Assembly: GCA_026415715.1 (NCBI GenBank)
Contig: JAOAGO010000024.1
Span: 1 to 46,934, forward strand
From: Chitinophagaceae bacterium
Lineage (GTDB): Bacteria; Bacteroidota; Bacteroidia; Chitinophagales; Chitinophagaceae
DNA: 46,934 bases
Direction of reading: 5' to 3'
In this document: positions 4,036 to 17,927 of the stretch, in pieces
How positions within the stretch are numbered: the stretch's first letter is position 1
Layout of the letters: the number at the start of each line of letters is the position of its first letter
Notes under the pieces: model-generated
Databases searched by the model: none
What the model saw: only the letters and a program-made list of their open reading frames with translations
Told to the model about the DNA's origin: nothing
Translations under genes and position numbers: made by a program

Positions 4036-4874
4036 AACTTACGTTGGGATTTTCGCCTTGCCCGAATGACACTTTTATTTTTGACGCCCTGGTGAGCGGC
4101 AAAATAGACACGTCTCCGTTTTCTTTTGAAGTGTACATGGAAGATGTGGAAACACTGAATCAGTGGGCCATCAGCCGGAAGCTGGACATTACCAAAATCA
4201 GCTTTCCGGCATTTTTTCGCTCTTTACCCGCTTATATTTTGCTTGGCTCAGGCGGCGCGATCGGATACGGAACCGGCCCGTTTCTGATCAGCGCTCATCA
4301 GAAAAAACTATCCGCCGAAGAAGTTTGTGCACACACCATTGTGCTGCCGGGCCGCCATACCACGGCCGATTTTCTTTTTCATTTTGCATATCCTGCCGCA
4401 AATCAAAAAATATTTCTTCGATTTGATCAAATTGAAGATTACTTAATCGAAAACGGAAAATCTGAAAATCTGTTGGGCGTAATTATTCATGAAAGCCGTT
4501 TTACCTATCAGCAAAAAGGATTATATCCGGTTGCGGATTTAGGAAAATACTGGGAAGAAAAAACCGGCAGTCCTGTACCCCTCGGTGGTATTGCCATACG
4601 AAGAGATATTGAAGAAAGGGTATGCCGGCGCATCAATCATTTGATTTACGAAAGTGTTTGCTATGCTCTGGACAGGCTTCCTCTGTTGCCTGATTTCGTG
4701 AAAAAACATGCACAGGCTTTGGACGAAGACGTGATGCGAAAGCATATAGATTTATATGTTAATGATTTTACGGTTCGGATGGGTTCGGAGGGGGAAAAAG
4801 CGGTTCAAAAATTATATGAAATATTCTGTGGTACCGAGGGGCAACCGCGAAGAGAAATATCATTATTTCTTTAA
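4032..4874 (+). CDS. mqnD: 1,4-dihydroxy-6-naphthoate synthase MqnD
   Basis: A 280-residue periplasmic-binding-fold enzyme (VitK2 biosynthesis family) that converts cyclic dehypoxanthine futalosine to 1,4-dihydroxy-6-naphthoate. The N terminus LGFSPCPNDTFIFDAL is diagnostic, followed by DITKISFPAF and the GSGGAIGYGTGP motif near residue 80. The frame is open further upstream, inside mqnB, but the ATG at 4032 fits both the family N terminus and the 4-bp ATGA overlap with mqnB. The 3' end overlaps the convergent photolyase gene by 12 bp, so the two genes share terminal bases. No other mqn genes (mqnA, mqnC) are in the window. Confidence 0.93.
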   Translation: MKLTLGFSPCPNDTFIFDALVSGKIDTSPFSFEVYMEDVETLNQWAISRKLDITKISFPAFFRSLPAYILLGSGGAIGYGTGPFLISAHQKKLSAEEVCAHTIVLPGRHTTADFLFHFAYPAANQKIFLRFDQIEDYLIENGKSENLLGVIIHESRFTYQQKGLYPVADLGKYWEEKTGSPVPLGGIAIRRDIEERVCRRINHLIYESVCYALDRLPLLPDFVKKHAQALDEDVMRKHIDLYVNDFTVRMGSEGEKAVQKLYEIFCGTEGQPRREISLFL

Positions 4875-6167
4875 AGCTTCTCCGTACACTTTCAGACAGC
4901 GTTGTCGAGCAAATACATGATCCACGATAGGTTTTGGGTAATGTAATTCATCGAGTTCGGGCACCCATTTCCGGATGTATTTCATTTCGGGATCAAATTT
5001 TTTTGCTTGCAAGGTCGGATTAAAAATCCGGAAATACGGCGCTGCATCACATCCGCTGCCGGCTGCCCACTGCCAGCCGCCGTTGTTGGCGGCAAGGTCA
5101 AAGTCAAGGAGTTTTTCGGCAAAGTATGCTTCACCCCATCGCCAGTCAATCAAAAGATGTTTGGTTAAAAAAGAGGCCACAATCATACGCACCCGGTTGT
5201 GCATATATCCGGTAGCGTTGAGCTCTCTCATGCCGGCATCCACAATCGGATAACCGGTTTGTCCCTTACACCATGCTTCAAATTCTTTTTCGTCATTCCG
5301 CCATTTAATCCGGTCGTATTCGGGTTTAAATGCTTTTGACACCACATGAGGAAAATGCCATAGGATCATGTGATAAAAATCCCGCCAGATCAGTTCGTTG
5401 AGAAAGGATTCGCTGACCGGGCCGGTTGCCGCGGCCAGCTCTCTGACACTGATGGTGCCGAAGCGAAGATGAACGCTCAGCCGGCTGGTGCCGGGTATGG
5501 CGGGGAAATCGCGTTGTTGTTTATAGTTTTTAATTATTTCATATTTCCATTCTTTGTCCGGAAAAGGGAGCCCGGCAGGCTGAAATCCCATCTGCTCAAG
5601 TGAAATAATCGGTTTAGGTGGTTGCTTATAGAAATGACGGAAATATTTTTCAGTAGGATAAGGCTTCAGATAAAAAGGGGTAAGCGTTGATTTCCATTTC
5701 AGCGAGTAGGGGGTAAATACGGTATAGGGCCTACCGTCTTCTTTAACCACTTCGTTTTTTTCAAAGATCACCTGGTCTTTACAGGTAAAGAAAGGAATGC
5801 CCCGGGCTTTGAGTTTTTCGTGAATCAGGGCGTCTCTTTTTCTGGCATAAGGTTCATAGTCGTGATTGGTAAATGCCTGAACAACGTCATAATCGCGAAG
5901 AAGTTCATCCCACACCTGTTCCGGCGTTCCGTAGCGAACGTCCAAAGTAGATCCCATACCCATTAGCTGTTGTTGCATTTCCTGAAGCGCCTGGTGGATG
6001 AATTCTACCCTTCGGTCTTTTTTTTCTTTCAGATCATTCAGGATGTGGGTATCAAATATAAAAACGGGAACAACCGGATTTCCGCTTTTCAGCGCATGAA
6101 ACAGGCCGGCATTATCATGCAGGCGCAGGTCGCGGCGAAACCAAAATACAGAAACTTTGGGACGCAT
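4863..6167 (-). CDS. phrB: Deoxyribodipyrimidine photolyase (CPD photolyase/cryptochrome family)
   Basis: A 434-residue blue-light enzyme that splits cyclobutane pyrimidine dimers. The N-terminal alpha/beta antenna domain opens with VFWFRRDLRLHDNAGL, typical of class I photolyases. The C-terminal FAD domain shows WRDFYHMILW, TGYPIVDAGMREL, MHNRVRMIVASFL and the block containing NNGGWQWAAGSG, which line the flavin and DNA-lesion pocket. The three tryptophans of the electron-transfer chain cannot be verified without an alignment. Length is slightly short of the E. coli enzyme (472) but normal for Bacteroidota. Its last codons overlap those of convergent mqnD by 12 bp. A possible -7 box lies about 20 bp upstream of the ATG. 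Confidence 0.93.
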   Translation of the reverse strand: MRPKVSVFWFRRDLRLHDNAGLFHALKSGNPVVPVFIFDTHILNDLKEKKDRRVEFIHQALQEMQQQLMGMGSTLDVRYGTPEQVWDELLRDYDVVQAFTNHDYEPYARKRDALIHEKLKARGIPFFTCKDQVIFEKNEVVKEDGRPYTVFTPYSLKWKSTLTPFYLKPYPTEKYFRHFYKQPPKPIISLEQMGFQPAGLPFPDKEWKYEIIKNYKQQRDFPAIPGTSRLSVHLRFGTISVRELAAATGPVSESFLNELIWRDFYHMILWHFPHVVSKAFKPEYDRIKWRNDEKEFEAWCKGQTGYPIVDAGMRELNATGYMHNRVRMIVASFLTKHLLIDWRWGEAYFAEKLLDFDLAANNGGWQWAAGSGCDAAPYFRIFNPTLQAKKFDPEMKYIRKWVPELDELHYPKPIVDHVFARQRCLKVYGEALKK

Positions 6168-6317: not shown

Positions 6318-6991
6318 TTACGCATGTTGTACAATGCCGGCTCTTACGGCATACATCACCAACCCGGCCATGGATTTTGTTCCGGTTTTGGTTTTGAGTT
6401 TAACGCGTATAGCTTCAATGGTACGGGGGCTGAGATCCACAATAACGGCAATTTCTTTTGTACTTTTTTCTTCGCACATCTGGCGCAAGATGGTAATTTC
6501 TTTCCCGGTAAGCTGTACATCCTAAGGTTTGTAGGCTTCATCCGTTCGTTTGGTTTTCAATCCGTTGAGTAAAGCTTTATTGGTAATGTCGTTGAAAAAG
6601 TAATCGTTGGCGTACACGGTTTTTATGGCTTCATAAATCATATCCGAGCCGGATTCTTTCGTAAGATATGAGTTGGCGCCGAGTTCCATCATTTTGGTAA
6701 TCATGGTATGATCGTTATACATGGAAAGCATGATGACTTTAATGTCCGGATACAGTTTTTAATTTCCGGAAGTGTAGTCAGGCCATCCATTACCGGCATG
6801 GATATGTCTAACAGTACAAAATCGGGACGAATGTGTTTCAGGAGATTCAGAAGTTGCATTCCGTTTTCGGCTTCGGCCACCATTTGAATGTCTTTACGTG
6901 ACTGAAGGGAAATTTTTACGCCTGTTCTGAACAGGGTATGATCGTCGGCGATTGCTACTTTGATGACAGTGTTAGATTCAAGATTTTTCAT
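6318..6991 (-). pseudogene. NarL/FixJ-type response regulator, disrupted (frameshift plus in-frame TAG)
   Basis: Reading around two lesions gives a complete, about 224-codon two-component response regulator. The receiver domain starts with VAIADDHTLFRTGV (acidic DD pair) and has the phospho-acceptor Asp in LLDISMPVMDG; it continues with VIMLSMYNDH and the conserved Lys of SYLTKES. The C terminus is a LuxR-type helix-turn-helix (LTGKEITIL, STKEIAVIVDLSPRTIEAI). The frame changes at a run of five A on the coding strand (6756-6760): six A would restore VLLDISMP...EIKKLYPDIKV. A TAG at 6522-6524 then separates the linker from the HTH, where CAG would give Gln. No histidine kinase is nearby. It is a paralogue of the broken regulator at 8178-8831. 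It may be a true pseudogene or partly a sequencing artefact; the in-frame TAG argues for true decay. Confidence 0.8.
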
Positions 6992-7216
6992 AGAATAAGG
7001 TTTTTTGGAACGTTAAAACTAATTACTCATGACGTAATTGTTTGTGCAAGATGTACAATTCTTTCAAAAAATGCTATAGCAAAATCACCTGATTTTTGCA
7101 TCGTGGAAAACACTATGGAAAAACGTGTTTTTTCGTAAAATTTACAAATTTTCACCTGCGAAGTTTTACGTCACACACAGTAAAAAATGCAGCCTAAAAA
7201 TCGGGTAGTAATGCTA

Positions 7217-7247
7217 TTGTATGGTTAGAACACGGCATTTACATTTG
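7217..7247 (+). promoter_or_regulatory. Complete Bacteroidota-type promoter for the ncRNA candidate
   Basis: The plus strand has a -33 TTG at 7217-7219, a 20-bp spacer, and an exact -7 box TACATTTG at 7240-7247. The base five positions after the box is the A at 7252 that begins a 15-bp perfect inverted repeat. This is the best-formed promoter in the window and no ORF follows it in the sense direction. Confidence 0.65.
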
Positions 7248-7251
7248 TTAC

Positions 7252-7373
7252 AGAAAGTTGATTGACAAAGAGGATTTTTAATCTTACCCATCCAATGTCC
7301 ATAACCGTCCACAAAGTTATTTCCAAATCCTATGAAAATGAGAATCCCGGAAGTCAATCAACTTTCTTTTTTT
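7252..7373 (+). ncRNA. Candidate small RNA gene: rod-shaped ~120-nt RNA with terminal stem and U tract
   Basis: Bases 7252-7266 and 7353-7367 are a perfect 15-bp inverted repeat (AGAAAGTTGATTGAC and its complement). A second nested stem pairs AGGATTT (7271-7277) with AAATCCT (7325-7331), and an apical stem pairs ATAAC (7301-7305) with GTTAT (7316-7320). Thus the RNA would be a rod with an asymmetric internal bulge: 4 nt on the 5' side and about 21 purine-rich nt on the 3' side. A run of seven T (7367-7373) directly follows the closing stem, as in a Rho-independent end. The promoter just upstream places the start at or next to 7252. No ORF of note is inside. The shape recalls 6S-type RNAs but is shorter, and I recognise no named family. 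The 3' tail meets the stop codon of the convergent broken methyltransferase gene. The rest of the 380-bp spacer (6992-7216) shows nothing I can name. Confidence 0.55.
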
Positions 7374-8127
7374 ATTTGTCTTTCCTTTTATTCCGTACAA
7401 TTATATAGGCCCTGGGATCTTCAAGAGTAAATTCTTTTTTGCCGGGAATACTATATACTTTTTCAAGAATTAATCCTGAATGATTCAGCATCCGTTCCAG
7501 TTCGTTCAGCGAATAAATATAATCAATTCCCGTTTTATATTCTTTTGTTCCGTCGGGAAGCGTCATGGTGCATTCTACCCGGTAGCGGGCGGGATGGAGT
7601 TGGAAAAAAATTTCATTGGAAAATAAAATGTCGCCGATTTTTGATTCGCTGTATTTTTCAAAAGTACGGTAGGCGATTTCAGCAATTGTCCAGCTGTTAA
7701 TCAGAAAGCTTCCGTTTTCTTTCAGCGCCTGTGCCACCTTTGAAAAAAGAAGTTGCAGGTCATCGGGCGGGAAAAAATTAATGCTGTTGCCCATACAGAT
7801 CGCCAGATCATATTCCATGCCCGGCGTGAATTCCAGAACGGGTAAACAATGAGCGGTTACCGGAAGATTTTCTTTTTGTGCCGTATCGGAAATTTCACGG
7901 ATCTAATCAGGCAGATTGTCCACTCCGGTTACTTCCATGCCTTTCCGGGCCAGGGCTATGGCATGGCGGCCATAGCCACACATCAGATCCAGCACCCGAC
8001 TTCCGGGCCGTAATCCGAAGTAAGAAATCATGAATTCGGTTTCCCGTTCGGTGAGGATACCGGGAATAATGTTTTTCCAGATGTATTTATAGGAGCCGTC
8101 GAAAAAAGTGTCGTTTACATTGGTCAC
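7372..8127 (-). pseudogene. Class I SAM-dependent methyltransferase interrupted by an in-frame TAG
   Basis: The two halves, 7903-8127 and 7372-7902, lie in the same frame and form one about 251-codon methyltransferase. SAM-binding motif I is VLDLMCGYGRHAIALA, and the motif II acidic residue is in VTGVDNLP. The second half carries YDLAICMGNSINFFP and a typical small-molecule methyltransferase C-terminal domain. A single TAG at 7903-7905 follows LPD, just after the motif II strand; a CAG would encode Gln. No frameshift is present and the rest of the coding sequence is undamaged, so the lesion looks recent. If translation ended there the product would be 74 residues and lack most of the fold. 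It sits between two broken response regulators on the same strand. Readthrough is possible but nothing in the sequence supports it. Confidence 0.8.
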
Positions 8128-8177: not shown

Positions 8178-8831
8178 TCATTCAATCAGTTTATTTCTCA
8201 TGCCGTACATAATCAAACCGGCAATGGTTTTTACGCCGGCTTTTTGTTTCATTTGCTGGCGAATGGTTTCAATGGTTCGCGGGCTCAGGAAGATTTCTTT
8301 TGAAATTTCTTCGGTGGTTTTGTCTTCGGCAATCAGTTTCAGAATTTTCAGTTCTTTTTCCGAAAATTTTACCGGATTGGGATAGAATTGCCGGATTTTT
8401 TTTGTGTTGAAGTTTCAGCAGTACGGCATGATTCACCAGATCGTTAAAATAAAAATCATCATTCATACAGGTAAGGATGGCCTGTTAAATTTCTTCCGCG
8501 TCGGTGGTTTTGGTGAGATAGGCATTAGCTCCCATTTCCATCATTTTTGTAATCATTTCCTGGTCGTCGTACATGGTGAGGATGATGATTTTAATATCTT
8601 CAAACTCCTGACGGATTAACCTGATGGCATTGATGCTGTCTATCTCGGGCATGCGGATATCCATGAGGATGACGTCGGGCAGTTTCAGCTTCAGTATGTG
8701 CATCAGATCTTTTCCGTCATCAGCCTCCCAGATGATTTTCAGATTTTCTTTATCTTTCAAAACGCCATGCGAATGCCGTCGCGGAATATTTGATGATCAT
8801 CGGCAATAGCCAGTTTTATTTGCTGCCGCAT
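8178..8831 (-). pseudogene. NarL/FixJ-type response regulator, disrupted (two compensating indels and an in-frame TAA)
   Basis: A second receiver-HTH regulator, about 218 codons when read through its lesions. The N terminus IKLAIADDHQIFRDGIRMAF is in one frame. It shifts by -1 at a run of four T on the coding strand (8759-8762), where five would give AFLKDKENLKII. The receiver goes on with VILMDIRMPEID, ILTMYDDQEM and NAYLTKTTDAEEI. A TAA at 8485-8487 follows, then an extra A in an eight-A run (8396-8403) shifts the frame back to the HTH, KFSEKELKILKLI through LSPRTIETIRQQM. So the two indels cancel in frame but the TAA remains. The usual Gly after the phospho-acceptor loop (MDG) is Ser here. 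It is paralogous to the regulator at 6318-6991, with the methyltransferase between them. No partner kinase is present. Confidence 0.8.
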
Positions 8832-9090
8832 CGTATTTGGCTCTGATTTTTATTTTATCTGTAAAACTTATTTTAATATTTTGAATAATCAAATTTTACA
8901 ATCACAGGCAAATAAAAATTATTCAATCCACAGGTGTGAATTACTTCTGTTACCGTATTTGGGATTTTTCCGTCTATCAATGTCAATTTCATACATCTGT
9001 AATAAATAAATACGTATGAAAAAATCAATATCCAGTGATGCATTTACATGTAAGGCAAGAACGTTACTTCTATTGTAAGGTGTGGGCGGG

Positions 9091-9238: not shown

Positions 9239-11317
9239 TCATAAACCTTTTCGGGCAACCATGGTAAGGATGGTGCCGACGCCGATGAGCGGCTCGTTGC
9301 TTTCGTCTAAAATTTCCACCAGCCATTTTACGATGCCTTTGGGTATATCGTCGCCTCGCTTTGGTGTTTCGCCGGGCTGCAGGGTGCGGATATCGGAAGG
9401 CAGTTTTTCCTTGCAGGTGAAGCGTACAAAAATTTCGGTGCCGGGATATACGGGTTTGGTAAAGCGAAACTCGTCTATGCCGTAGTTGAGCAAAACGGCA
9501 TTTTTTTCGTAGCTGTCCACAAACAGTCCGGCAGCCAGGCTGATAAGCAGATAACCATGCGCTACCTGCCGCTCAAACATAGTGTTGCTGAAATCGGTTT
9601 CGGCAATATGCGCATAAAAATGGTCGCCGCTCAGGTCGGCAAAACGGTTTATTTCGTCAGAGGTGACAAGTCGTTTGGCAGTGATGATCTGGTCGCCGAT
9701 TTGCAGTTCTTCAAAATATTTTCTGAAGGGATGGATGCCGGGGTCTTTTCCTTTGGCATGCATCTGATACACGTTGGTTATTTCGGTAATCATATCGGGC
9801 GAGCCCTGCAGAGCCGTTCGCTGCATGTAATGTTTTACGCCCCGCACTCCGCCCATTTCTTCACCGCCGCCTGCACGGCCCGGGCCACCGTGCACCAGTA
9901 AAGGCAAGGGGCTGCCGTGTCCGGTATTTTCTCTGGCACAGGTATTGTTCAGCACCAGAATTCTTCCGTGATAGCAGGCGGTACCGATAACATATTTACG
10001 GGCTTCTTTTTCATCATCGGTTACGATGGTTGTCACCAGGCTTCCTTTTCCTTTTTTGCTCAGTTCAATGACATCGTCAATATTTTTATAAGGCATTAAC
10101 GTACTTACGGGTCCGAAGGCTTCCACTTCGTGAGGTTCGGCGCAATGATGCGGTTTTTCGTTGAGCAAGAGAATAGGTGAAAGAAAAGCGCCTTTGTGCG
10201 CATCGGCATCTACCACTTCTACACTGTCCAGCGAGCCGTAGATGATTTGTGACGAAGCGAGCAGTTTCTGCACCTGGGCTTTAACTTCGGCAACCTGAGC
10301 TTTTCCGGCAAGGGCGCCCATACGTACTTTTTCATTCAAGGGGTTGCCGATGATTGTTTGCGCCAATGAGGCAATAAGCGAACGGCGCACTTCATCCAGT
10401 TTGTCTTCCGGCACAAATATGCGGCGCACTCCCGTACAGCGTTGTCCGGCTTTGAGCGTCATTTCCTTTCTGATTTCTTTTATGAAAATATCCCATTCGG
10501 GTTTTTGGGGTGTAATGTGTTGTCCCAGCACAATGCAGTTCAGGCTGTCGGCCTCCATGTTGAACGGCACATTGTTTTGTACAATGGCGGGGGATTGCTT
10601 CAGCTTTAGTCCGGTAGAGGCGCTGCCGGTAAACGTAACCACATCCTGACTGTCCACAAAGTCCAGCAGGTTGCCGGCGCTGCCGCAAATCAGTTGCAAA
10701 GCTCCGTCGGGCAAAATGCCTGAGGAAATGATTTCCCTGGCCACGGCTTCGGCCAGGTACGACGTGATGGTGGCGGGCTTCACGATGGCTGGCATTCCGG
10801 CCAGCAGATTCACCGCTATTTTTTCCAGCATGCCCCATACGGGAAAGTTGAACGCATTGATGTGGATAGCTACACCTTCTTTGGGTGTAAGAATATGCAA
10901 ACCCATAAAGGTATTTTGCCTGCCGAGCATATGGCTTTCGCCGTCAATGCACAATACATCGTCGGGAAATTTGCGACGCAGGGAAGCGTATGAAAATAAG
11001 TTGCCGATACCTCCTTCTATATCCAGCCAGCTGTCGGCTTTGGTAGCCCCGGTTTGATAGCTGACGGCGTAAAATTTGTCCAGATGCTTTCGCAGGTGCA
11101 GCGCCAGTTCACGCAGCATGCGCCCCCGCTCATGAAAGGTCATTTTTCGCAAAGCCGGGTTGCCTTTTTTTCTGGCGTAGTCAATCATAGCCTTAAAGTC
11201 GATGCCACGGGTGCCGGTTACGGCCACCGGTTCGCCGGTGACGGCATTGTATAACGTTTGTTCTTCGCCTTCGCCGCTTACCCATTGTCCGGCCACAAAA
11301 TGTTGCAGTTTGTACAT
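9239..11317 (-). CDS. paaZ: PaaZ: oxepin-CoA hydrolase / 3-oxo-5,6-dehydrosuberyl-CoA semialdehyde dehydrogenase
   Basis: A 692-residue bifunctional enzyme of the aerobic phenylacetyl-CoA pathway. Residues 1 to about 515 are an aldehyde dehydrogenase with the family opening LQHFVAGQWVSGEG, the NAD-binding FTGSASTG near residue 228, and the catalytic Cys in KAGQRCTGVRR near residue 293. Residues from about 530 to the end are an R-specific enoyl-CoA hydratase (MaoC-like) domain with the catalytic DLSGDHFYAHIAETDF near residue 560. Order and total length match E. coli PaaZ (681). No other paa genes are in the window, so this copy is isolated; in such a setting it may serve phenylacetate breakdown with paa genes elsewhere. 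The gene is intact. The start ATG is the first and only plausible one. Confidence 0.93.
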   Translation of the reverse strand: MYKLQHFVAGQWVSGEGEEQTLYNAVTGEPVAVTGTRGIDFKAMIDYARKKGNPALRKMTFHERGRMLRELALHLRKHLDKFYAVSYQTGATKADSWLDIEGGIGNLFSYASLRRKFPDDVLCIDGESHMLGRQNTFMGLHILTPKEGVAIHINAFNFPVWGMLEKIAVNLLAGMPAIVKPATITSYLAEAVAREIISSGILPDGALQLICGSAGNLLDFVDSQDVVTFTGSASTGLKLKQSPAIVQNNVPFNMEADSLNCIVLGQHITPQKPEWDIFIKEIRKEMTLKAGQRCTGVRRIFVPEDKLDEVRRSLIASLAQTIIGNPLNEKVRMGALAGKAQVAEVKAQVQKLLASSQIIYGSLDSVEVVDADAHKGAFLSPILLLNEKPHHCAEPHEVEAFGPVSTLMPYKNIDDVIELSKKGKGSLVTTIVTDDEKEARKYVIGTACYHGRILVLNNTCARENTGHGSPLPLLVHGGPGRAGGGEEMGGVRGVKHYMQRTALQGSPDMITEITNVYQMHAKGKDPGIHPFRKYFEELQIGDQIITAKRLVTSDEINRFADLSGDHFYAHIAETDFSNTMFERQVAHGYLLISLAAGLFVDSYEKNAVLLNYGIDEFRFTKPVYPGTEIFVRFTCKEKLPSDIRTLQPGETPKRGDDIPKGIVKWLVEILDESNEPLIGVGTILTMVARKGL

Positions 11318-17216: not shown

Positions 17217-17927
17217 ATGAAACTAAAAAATGCCTTTTTAGCCATTTTATTTTTACTTGTTTTGGCTTTTGTTTCTTGTACTAAAGAGGGGCCGCAAGGG
17301 CCTCCTGGACCGCAAGGGCCGGTAGGACCGCAAGGACCACAGGGACCGCAAGGACCGCAAGGACCACAGGGACCACAAGGACCACAAGGACCGCAAGGAC
17401 CACAGGGACCACAGGGACCACAAGGACCGCAAGGACCTCCGGGCACGGCAAATGTAATCTACTCTTCCTGGTTCTCATTCGCCGCATCCGATTGGACAGA
17501 CACGACAGTTTATGGTTTACTTGCCGCCAGGGCCATACGAAGCGCACCGGGATTAACTTCTGCCATATTTAATCAAGGCGTGGTTTTAAACTATTGGAAA
17601 ACAAGTAACCCTACAACAAATATTCATTTGTTACCTGTTACGATAAATTTCAGCAATATAAACAGCTGGGAAGAAGTAATTCCCTATCTTTCAACGGGAA
17701 AAATTACCTACATCTTTAGAAGGGTAAGTTCAGGAACTGTAGCTACCGGGGCATCATTAACCTCGCCCAACGAATTTCGTTATGTATTAATTCCGGGCGG
17801 AGTGGCCGGTGGCCGCGGTACCCATCCAGAGAAATACTGTGAAATTAACGGCAGGGTTTATACAGAATCTGAGTTAAAGGCGATGAGTTATTCTCAGGTA
17901 TGCCGGTTATTGAACATACCTGAATAA
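17217..17927 (+). CDS. Collagen-like lipoprotein
   Basis: A 236-residue predicted outer-surface lipoprotein. The signal peptide ends in a lipobox with Cys21 (AFVSC). After four residues a collagen-like tract of 17 uninterrupted Gly-X-Y triplets follows (residues about 25-75), nearly all Gly-Pro-Gln, with Gly-Pro-Pro near each end. The remaining about 160 residues form a globular domain with no family I recognise; it has a Cys pair (YCEI and VCRLL) near the C terminus. Bacterial collagen tracts of this kind form triple helices, so the protein may be trimeric and project from the cell surface. It stands alone, 74 bp after the preceding operon, and ends at a hairpin shared with convergent guaB. 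Confidence 0.85.
17289..17441 (+). repeat. 9-bp tandem repeat encoding 17 Gly-Pro-X triplets
   Basis: Seventeen consecutive 9-bp units of the type GGACCGCAA or GGACCACAG, with one unit each of GPV, and GPP twice. Third-position variation (CCG/CCA, CAA/CAG) is scattered, so the tract is not perfectly homogenised. A multiple-of-three unit means that gain or loss of copies would change protein length without breaking the frame. Confidence 0.9.

Follow-up and report, generated by a model that had tools for sequence, protein, structure and literature searches.

Post-transcriptional control is less well known in Bacteroidota than in proteobacteria. Most known bacterial RNAs of about 120 nt pair with mRNAs, and 6S RNA (RF00013) binds RNA polymerase and templates pRNA. 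In the Gac/Rsm system of gammaproteobacteria, GacA is a regulator of the NarL/FixJ class. The RsmX/Y/Z RNAs sequester proteins of the RsmA family, contain several unpaired GGA motifs and are preceded by a palindromic activating sequence, according to an excerpt of the source (PMC2375449). LhrC of Listeria requires a two-component system and offers three C-rich sites that are redundant (PMC4132741, in excerpt). FopS of Bacteroides, a 14-member paralogous family, acts at the 5′ regions of susC-like mRNAs (PMC11697453, in excerpt).

The window analysed here is a stretch of 46,934 nucleotides, contig JAOAGO010000024.1 of a Chitinophagaceae bacterium. Part of its plus strand has, judged by sequence, the look of a true small-RNA gene, equipped with a promoter and a terminator-like end of its own. 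A first-pass annotation had placed a promoter, a perfect 15-bp inverted repeat and a run of seven T there, and all three were found at those positions when the window was re-read, except that four bases, not five, separate TTTG from the 5′ arm. The features are the following.

7133-7146, plus strand: distal upstream box TCGTAAAATTTACA, at -115 relative to the TTTG end; tentative.
7164-7171, plus strand: upstream box TTTTACGT, with TAC(G) from -81 of the TTTG end, the commonest position in dispersed copies.
7180-7186, plus strand: upstream box GTAAAAA at the -68 GTAWWT position, its last base off-pattern.
7203-7219, plus strand: GGGTA-N4-TGCTATTG, an upstream element that continues into the TTG at -33.
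7217-7219, plus strand: TTG (-33), with a 20 bp spacer to TACATTTG.
7240-7247, plus strand: -7 promoter element TACATTTG; TAnnTTTG occurs in 116 of 120 family copies, TTTG being a collection criterion.
7252-7266, plus strand: 5′ arm of the closing stem, AGAAAGTTGATTGAC, presumed 5′ end of the RNA, from the repeat and the fold.
7267-7352, plus strand: inner helix plus large loop; UCC occurs six times (7291, 7298, 7308, 7322, 7328, 7345).
7289-7330, plus strand: sequence-conserved core CATCCAATGTCC..ACCGTCCA..TTTCCAAATCC, from the alignment of relatives.
7353-7373, plus strand: 3′ arm of the closing stem, GTCAATCAACTTTCT (7353-7367), and T run (7367-7373), presumed terminator.
6321-6991, minus strand: RR1, a NarL/LuxR-type response regulator, divergent from the RNA and broken (residues 77-223 at 74%, internal stops).
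7372-8127, minus strand: methyltransferase gene, convergent, its frame interrupted.
8180-8832 (approximate, by eye), minus strand: RR2, a second response regulator, interrupted; receiver domain, LuxR-type in relatives.

The two arms of the repeat lie 86 nt apart, and no other inverted repeat in the window has arms of at least 14 nt and a gap of 60-110 nt. Among 200 first-order Markov resamplings of the window, which are not exact shuffles, such a repeat appeared in 5, and one followed by at least 7 T in 10 nt in none. The fold of the plus strand has an energy of -27.2 kcal/mol (z -4.0), equalled by 0 of 200 dinucleotide shuffles. Given these two controls, chance does not explain the repeat and the fold. 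The antisense strand was rejected as the RNA, as the promoter faces the other way and the fold there has a z of -2.5. The spacer had been described as free of any sense reading frame, and indeed no plus-strand ORF of at least 60 aa crosses the RNA; a 37-codon frame begins inside the loop and is not preserved in relatives. The methyltransferase frame stops at 7372, which confirms that the tail of the RNA meets the 3′ end of that gene. The earlier failure to recognise a family was also borne out: with Rfam 15 at the gathering threshold, neither the window nor eight relatives gave a match. A permissive Rfam search of the window returned a lone miRNA match, on the other strand and with an E of 9.3, which is chance.

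The locus belongs to a family, which, like its siting beside response regulators and its shared upstream boxes, is not visible from the window alone. A BLAST search with a 211-base query detected the element in 24 of the 42 genomes of the genus, and a covariance model added a 25th (G029); the remaining genomes gave just short weak BLAST matches, including six loci without a model match. Among 244 sampled Chitinophagaceae genomes, the RNA was found in 78 with covariance model R1 (E up to 0.1) and in 87 with model R2 (E up to 0.01). A core-pattern scan of titled genomes gave 100 stretches, and the genera among the matches listed (80 of the 100) include Flavihumibacter, Terrimonas, Niastella, Puia, Paraflavitalea, Pseudoflavitalea and Flavisolibacter, of which Flavihumibacter and Puia belong to the Chitinophagaceae. 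A pattern made of TTTG and the 5′ arm matched in 136 of 234 family genomes and at 11 places in G086, a count that overstates the family, some matches falling in other sequence. Beyond the family, covariance-model searches with strict filters in samples of 395 genomes of the class and 198 of the order, family members included, left only three matches of 30-34 bits, in G588, G709 and G813. Those in G588 and G709 lie within long reading frames and that in G813 has no promoter, so that these are probably chance. No description of such Chitinophagaceae RNAs appeared among the open-licence titles and abstract openings listed.

Many genomes have several copies, with 9 in G086 and 7 in G145 by model search, and three carry tandem triplets with copies about 460-520 nt apart (G213:C4, G264:C81, G141:C26). 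Dispersed copies are alike in promoter and closing stem and differ in their loops. For statistics, 139 distinct copies were dereplicated to 122, of which 56 are divergent from RR1, 18 divergent from RR2 and 48 other, this last class meaning that no RR1 or RR2 homologue was found divergently within the stretch examined. Enough upstream sequence was available for 120 of them (56, 18 and 46). A copy had to show TTTG and 8 or more closing pairs to be among the 122, and neither of these features therefore counts as evidence; 36 of them derive from the core-pattern scan, and the conservation and co-occurrence counts given below include related genomes. A third recurrent site was noticed, at which the copy lies 3′ of a gene that we take to be cysteine-synthase-like (L191, L198, L206, L207, L208), followed at L198, L207 and L208 by a presumably periplasmic-binding-like gene. 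One RR2-linked copy stands in a genome titled Gammaproteobacteria bacterium (L126), probably a mislabelled bin.

The control region was compared between the three classes, with positions counted from the end of TTTG. A TTG stands 20 nt ahead of the TA element in 107 of 120 copies. GTAWWT at -69 to -66 was present in 38/56 RR1-linked, 17/18 RR2-linked and 30/46 other copies (shuffle means 0.64, 0.14 and 0.46), and TACGA inside 120 nt in 45/56, 12/18 and 28/46 (shuffle means 7.9, 2.1 and 3.5). The strongest sign of a common activator is that the -68 box keeps its distance in copies beside which no regulator gene was found, and the sequence suggests one for all copy classes. RR1 or RR2 would be that activator, as we infer from adjacency and protein class. 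In the other class, the preferred position of TACGA is -81 and those of TCGTA are -90 and -113, with TCGTA-N4-TACGA sites about two helical turns apart, a palindrome seen only in dispersed copies. No excess of TCGTA was detected in RR1-linked copies (6/56, 5.7 expected) or in RR2-linked ones (1/18, 1.5 expected). This difference points to some divergence, and the classes need not share one activator. It is also why the TCGTAAAATTTACA box of the window is only tentative, TCGTA at -113 being typical of dispersed copies and not in excess in RR1-linked ones. At the other end of the gene, at least 6 T occur within 10 nt past the stem in 99 of 120 copies, compared to 7% of random 10-mers.

In the genus, 28 of the 41 genomes besides that of the window have an RR1 that is near full length and free of stops. 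In a relative, RR1 and RR2 each have a receiver and a LuxR/GerE domain, and the solved structures nearest RR1 by sequence are VraR and NarL. The distance from the RNA 5′ end to the RR1 start has an approximate median of 266 nt (range 245-291), and at several loci a histidine kinase gene follows the RR2-linked copy. When loci were retrieved by the RR1 protein alone (28 from the genus and the 30 best of the family), the model found the RNA in 53 of 58, the five without it being L282-L285 and L316. Over the 244 family genomes, a regulator match was present in 86 of the 87 with the RNA versus 13 of the 157 without (Fisher p 1.6e-50, ignoring relatedness), an association partly due to shared ancestry. 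The regulator set comprises 99 genomes at E up to 1e-60, of which at least one (G122, sole match 46%) is probably RR2. Within the genus, RR1 at 74% identity or more is found in 29 of 42 genomes, counting the broken one of the window, and 25 of these have the RNA. Four (G006, G008, G038, G040) keep RR1 with no RNA beside it, and the 13 genomes without such an RR1 gave at most short weak BLAST matches to the RNA. The regulator thus occurs without the RNA in these four and in 13 family genomes, which indicates that the pairing is not obligatory.

In the window itself, RR1, the methyltransferase gene and RR2 are all interrupted, and the genes on either side of them (4863-6167 and 9239-11317) are open. 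The window RNA misses a small hairpin of the inner rod, with promoter, stem and core kept, and the RNA that is linked to RR2 in relatives was not found in this genome. It looks as if the regulator-RNA module is decaying in this genome, or as if there were local sequence errors. Three further observations were made on neighbouring sequences. At genus loci L002-L025, within 420 nt downstream of the RNA, an element CATAACAGTAAC is present in 23 of 24 and a GC hairpin in 21 of 24; this is possibly another RNA or a two-way terminator. At L032, L034, L036 and L037, the sequence 3′ of the RR2-linked RNA holds TTATCCACAGCTG, then a TTAATA- or TTGATAA-like half, then TTACTA-type repeats, of which the first two presumably resemble inverted DnaA boxes. 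Elsewhere in the window, the ORF at 17217-17927 has a lipoprotein-like start and then a long collagen-like GPQGPQ repeat.

An alignment of 24 genus sequences contains a long conserved stretch, CATCCAATGTCC..AACCGTCCAGAAAG..TTTCCAAATCC..TTGAAAAACC, and an almost invariant closing stem, GAAAGTTGATTG/CAATCAACTTTC, in which 9 of 12 pairs are invariant and none is altered on both sides. RNAalifold alone, applied to this alignment, recovered the closing stem only, with no pair changed on both sides. Inner helices, which vary in sequence and covary, were derived by summing pair probabilities over the individual sequences, and covariation was then counted on the same alignment: 7 of 25 pairs are altered on both sides (shuffle mean 2.9), and 93.7% of cells are paired versus 90.3% in shuffles. 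In the inner rod, helix 2 is paired in just 76.8% of cells. Family-wide, inner pair 12 of the closing stem, which lay outside the collection rule, is U-A in 65 and C-G in 31 copies, and standard in 104 of 122. The expectation that relatives would keep promoter and stem was therefore upheld; compensatory change in the stem is absent within the genus and seen only family-wide. Relatives that lose the promoter together with the stem pairing, the loss named beforehand as counting against an RNA gene, were not encountered at the level of sequence. In 35 of 48 dispersed copies, an ATCAA close by is complementary to TTGAT of the 5′ arm, which allows an alternative 5′ hairpin that is found in 0/56 RR1-linked and 1/18 RR2-linked copies. 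On its sequence, this hairpin is a possible structural switch.

The loop had been called purine-rich, which does not fit the composition of the pooled family loops (A 38%, C 26%, T 24%, G 12.5%). Their most enriched trinucleotide is UCC, with 659 observed versus 398 expected in the 122 copies. RR1-linked, RR2-linked and other loops hold on average 5.54, 5.39 and 5.25 UCC and never fewer than 3, 4 and 3, respectively, compared to 3.52, 3.37 and 3.04 in exact dinucleotide shuffles, an enrichment of merely about 1.6- to 1.7-fold. The predicted unpaired fraction of UCC is 0.70, 0.67 and 0.75 versus loop means of 0.57, 0.57 and 0.70. The Csr motif GGA is scarce, at 0.79 per loop versus 5.4 UCC. UCCC is found in 15/56, 5/18 and 5/48 loops (0.32, 0.28 and 0.10 per loop). 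Longer strings are distributed differently: among copies from outside the core-pattern scan, CCAATGTCC occurs in 33 of 40 RR1-linked and 1 of 43 other-class copies, and ACCGTCC in 40 of 40 and 10 of 43. That scan supplied 15 of the 18 RR2-linked copies, whose strings are therefore selected; it did not supply 43 of the 48 other-class copies. Over the whole other class, merely 6 of 48 copies have CCAATGTCC, yet the number of UCC is about equal.

How far the RNA resembles the described systems can now be stated. With Gac/Rsm and Csr, as presented in the excerpt of PMC2375449, it shares a suspected regulator of the NarL/FixJ class, an upstream element common to several RNAs, and one short motif present many times in each RNA. 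A regulator with receiver and GerE domains adjoins the RNA here, and its link to the promoter is a presumptive one, drawn from sequence. The phylum is different, however, the closing stem encloses one big loop, and the motif is UCC instead of GGA. CsrA (PF02599) was detected in none of the 42 genus genomes, and in 3 of 14 control genomes. Because the motif differs and CsrA was not detected, the Chitinophagaceae RNA is not a member of Csr/Rsm. The LisRK-dependent LhrC1-5 of Listeria are likewise multicopy, linked to a two-component system and endowed with redundant C-rich sites (PMC4132741, in excerpt). UCCC sites are rare here, UCC being redundant instead; the upstream regions of 537 genes near RNA loci have no Shine-Dalgarno signal, and an Hfq model matched 0 of 42 genus genomes. 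FopS and GibS of Bacteroides belong to the same phylum and share a paralogous family and a conserved single-stranded segment (PMC11697453, in excerpt). FopS, which is bound by the RRM protein RbpB, has an open 5′ stretch and then a terminator hairpin, whereas the predicted 5′ end here lies inside the closing stem; there is no Rfam match here, in an Rfam copy that may or may not contain the deposited FopS family. Not all of the testable defining features of LhrC or FopS are thus found in the Chitinophagaceae RNA. With 6S RNA, it has in common a rod-like outline and one large loop. RF00013, however, matched none of the 42 genus genomes (5 of 14 control genomes were positive), and the present RNA is multicopy with a UCC-rich loop.

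We tentatively propose that the locus encodes a free-standing small RNA with a predicted length of about 116-122 nt, a member of the multicopy family of Chitinophagaceae, activated by the regulator and acting in trans by its UCC loop; this conjunction is quite possible, though we would not call it probable. Phosphorylated RR1 and/or RR2 would bind the upstream boxes, turning on the copies together. The closing stem would shield the RNA ends, and a partner in trans would find five to six UCC displayed in the loop. This partner could be an RNA-binding protein that is titrated, as RsmX/Y/Z titrate RsmA. A trans-acting antisense RNA, somewhat less probable in our judgement and still a serious candidate, would use the core UCCAAUGUCC..ACCGUCCAG as a seed for the translation-initiation regions of several mRNAs, the copies giving dosage and slightly different targets. 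The exact strings of RR1-linked copies, retained even in those that the core-pattern scan did not fetch, exceed what bare UCC sites need and favour such a seed, as does the prevalence of mRNA pairing among bacterial RNAs of this size. FopS in Bacteroides (PMC11697453, in excerpt) and LhrC in Listeria (PMC4132741, in excerpt) are precedents. Dispersed copies, on the other hand, mostly lack the exact strings and retain the number of UCC, which gives a slight lean to a multivalent protein sponge over an antisense seed. The lack of a Shine-Dalgarno signal in the 537 upstream regions near RNA loci speaks against blocking of such sequences by UCC. We consider a protein sponge slightly more likely than mRNA pairing, and each could apply to a different class of copies.

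The other explanations are much less probable. The spacer could be mainly the control region of RR1 or RR2, with the RNA a by-product or a local device; the almost constant RNA-to-RR1 spacing and the conserved spacer sequence fit this view, which is improbable all the same given that 48 of 122 copies have no RR1 or RR2 found alongside, most of them keeping promoter, -68 box, stem and UCC loop, and that RR1 persists without the RNA in four genomes. The first-pass annotation had compared the RNA to 6S RNA and guessed at either a regulator of RNA polymerase or a base-pairing RNA. The second role is the serious candidate weighed above, and the first is very unlikely: the predicted rod, with its closing stem and large asymmetric loop, and a role that might be vacant in a genus where RF00013 has no match, speak for it, but the absence of RF00013 matches is itself contrary evidence, conservation sits in the UCC-rich loop, and many genomes have several copies with conserved upstream boxes. 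A transcribed mobile repeat, spread by copying and not retained for function, would account for the multiple copies per genome and the tandem triplets; we give it even less credit, since RR-linked copies hold their position across genera, pairs covary, and most copies retain the -68 box and the number of UCC while their loops diverge. Least likely of all is a short peptide translated from a conserved start codon within the loop (MSITV..). An ATG precedes the core in 21 and a GTG in 2 of the 24 genus rows (the L025 row being another site), with similar initial residues in many of them; the frames, however, run for 6 to 61 codons and differ from one another inside the core, and RR2-linked copies use a different frame there, as judged by eye.

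We therefore retain, still tentatively and from sequence comparison, regulator-controlled multicopy RNAs that would act in trans via repeated UCC sites. The family spans many genera and has no match in Rfam 15. With a conserved RNA family, a regulator that may be dedicated to it and one simple motif that recurs, the question lends itself to direct testing. A more specific version, doubtful but worth stating, is an Rsm-like layer in Bacteroidota, in which a NarL-type two-component system would drive UCC sponge RNAs that titrate a putative, possibly global UCC-binding protein. If this is true, an Rsm-like sponge layer operates in a genus where neither CsrA nor Hfq was detected in 42 genomes.
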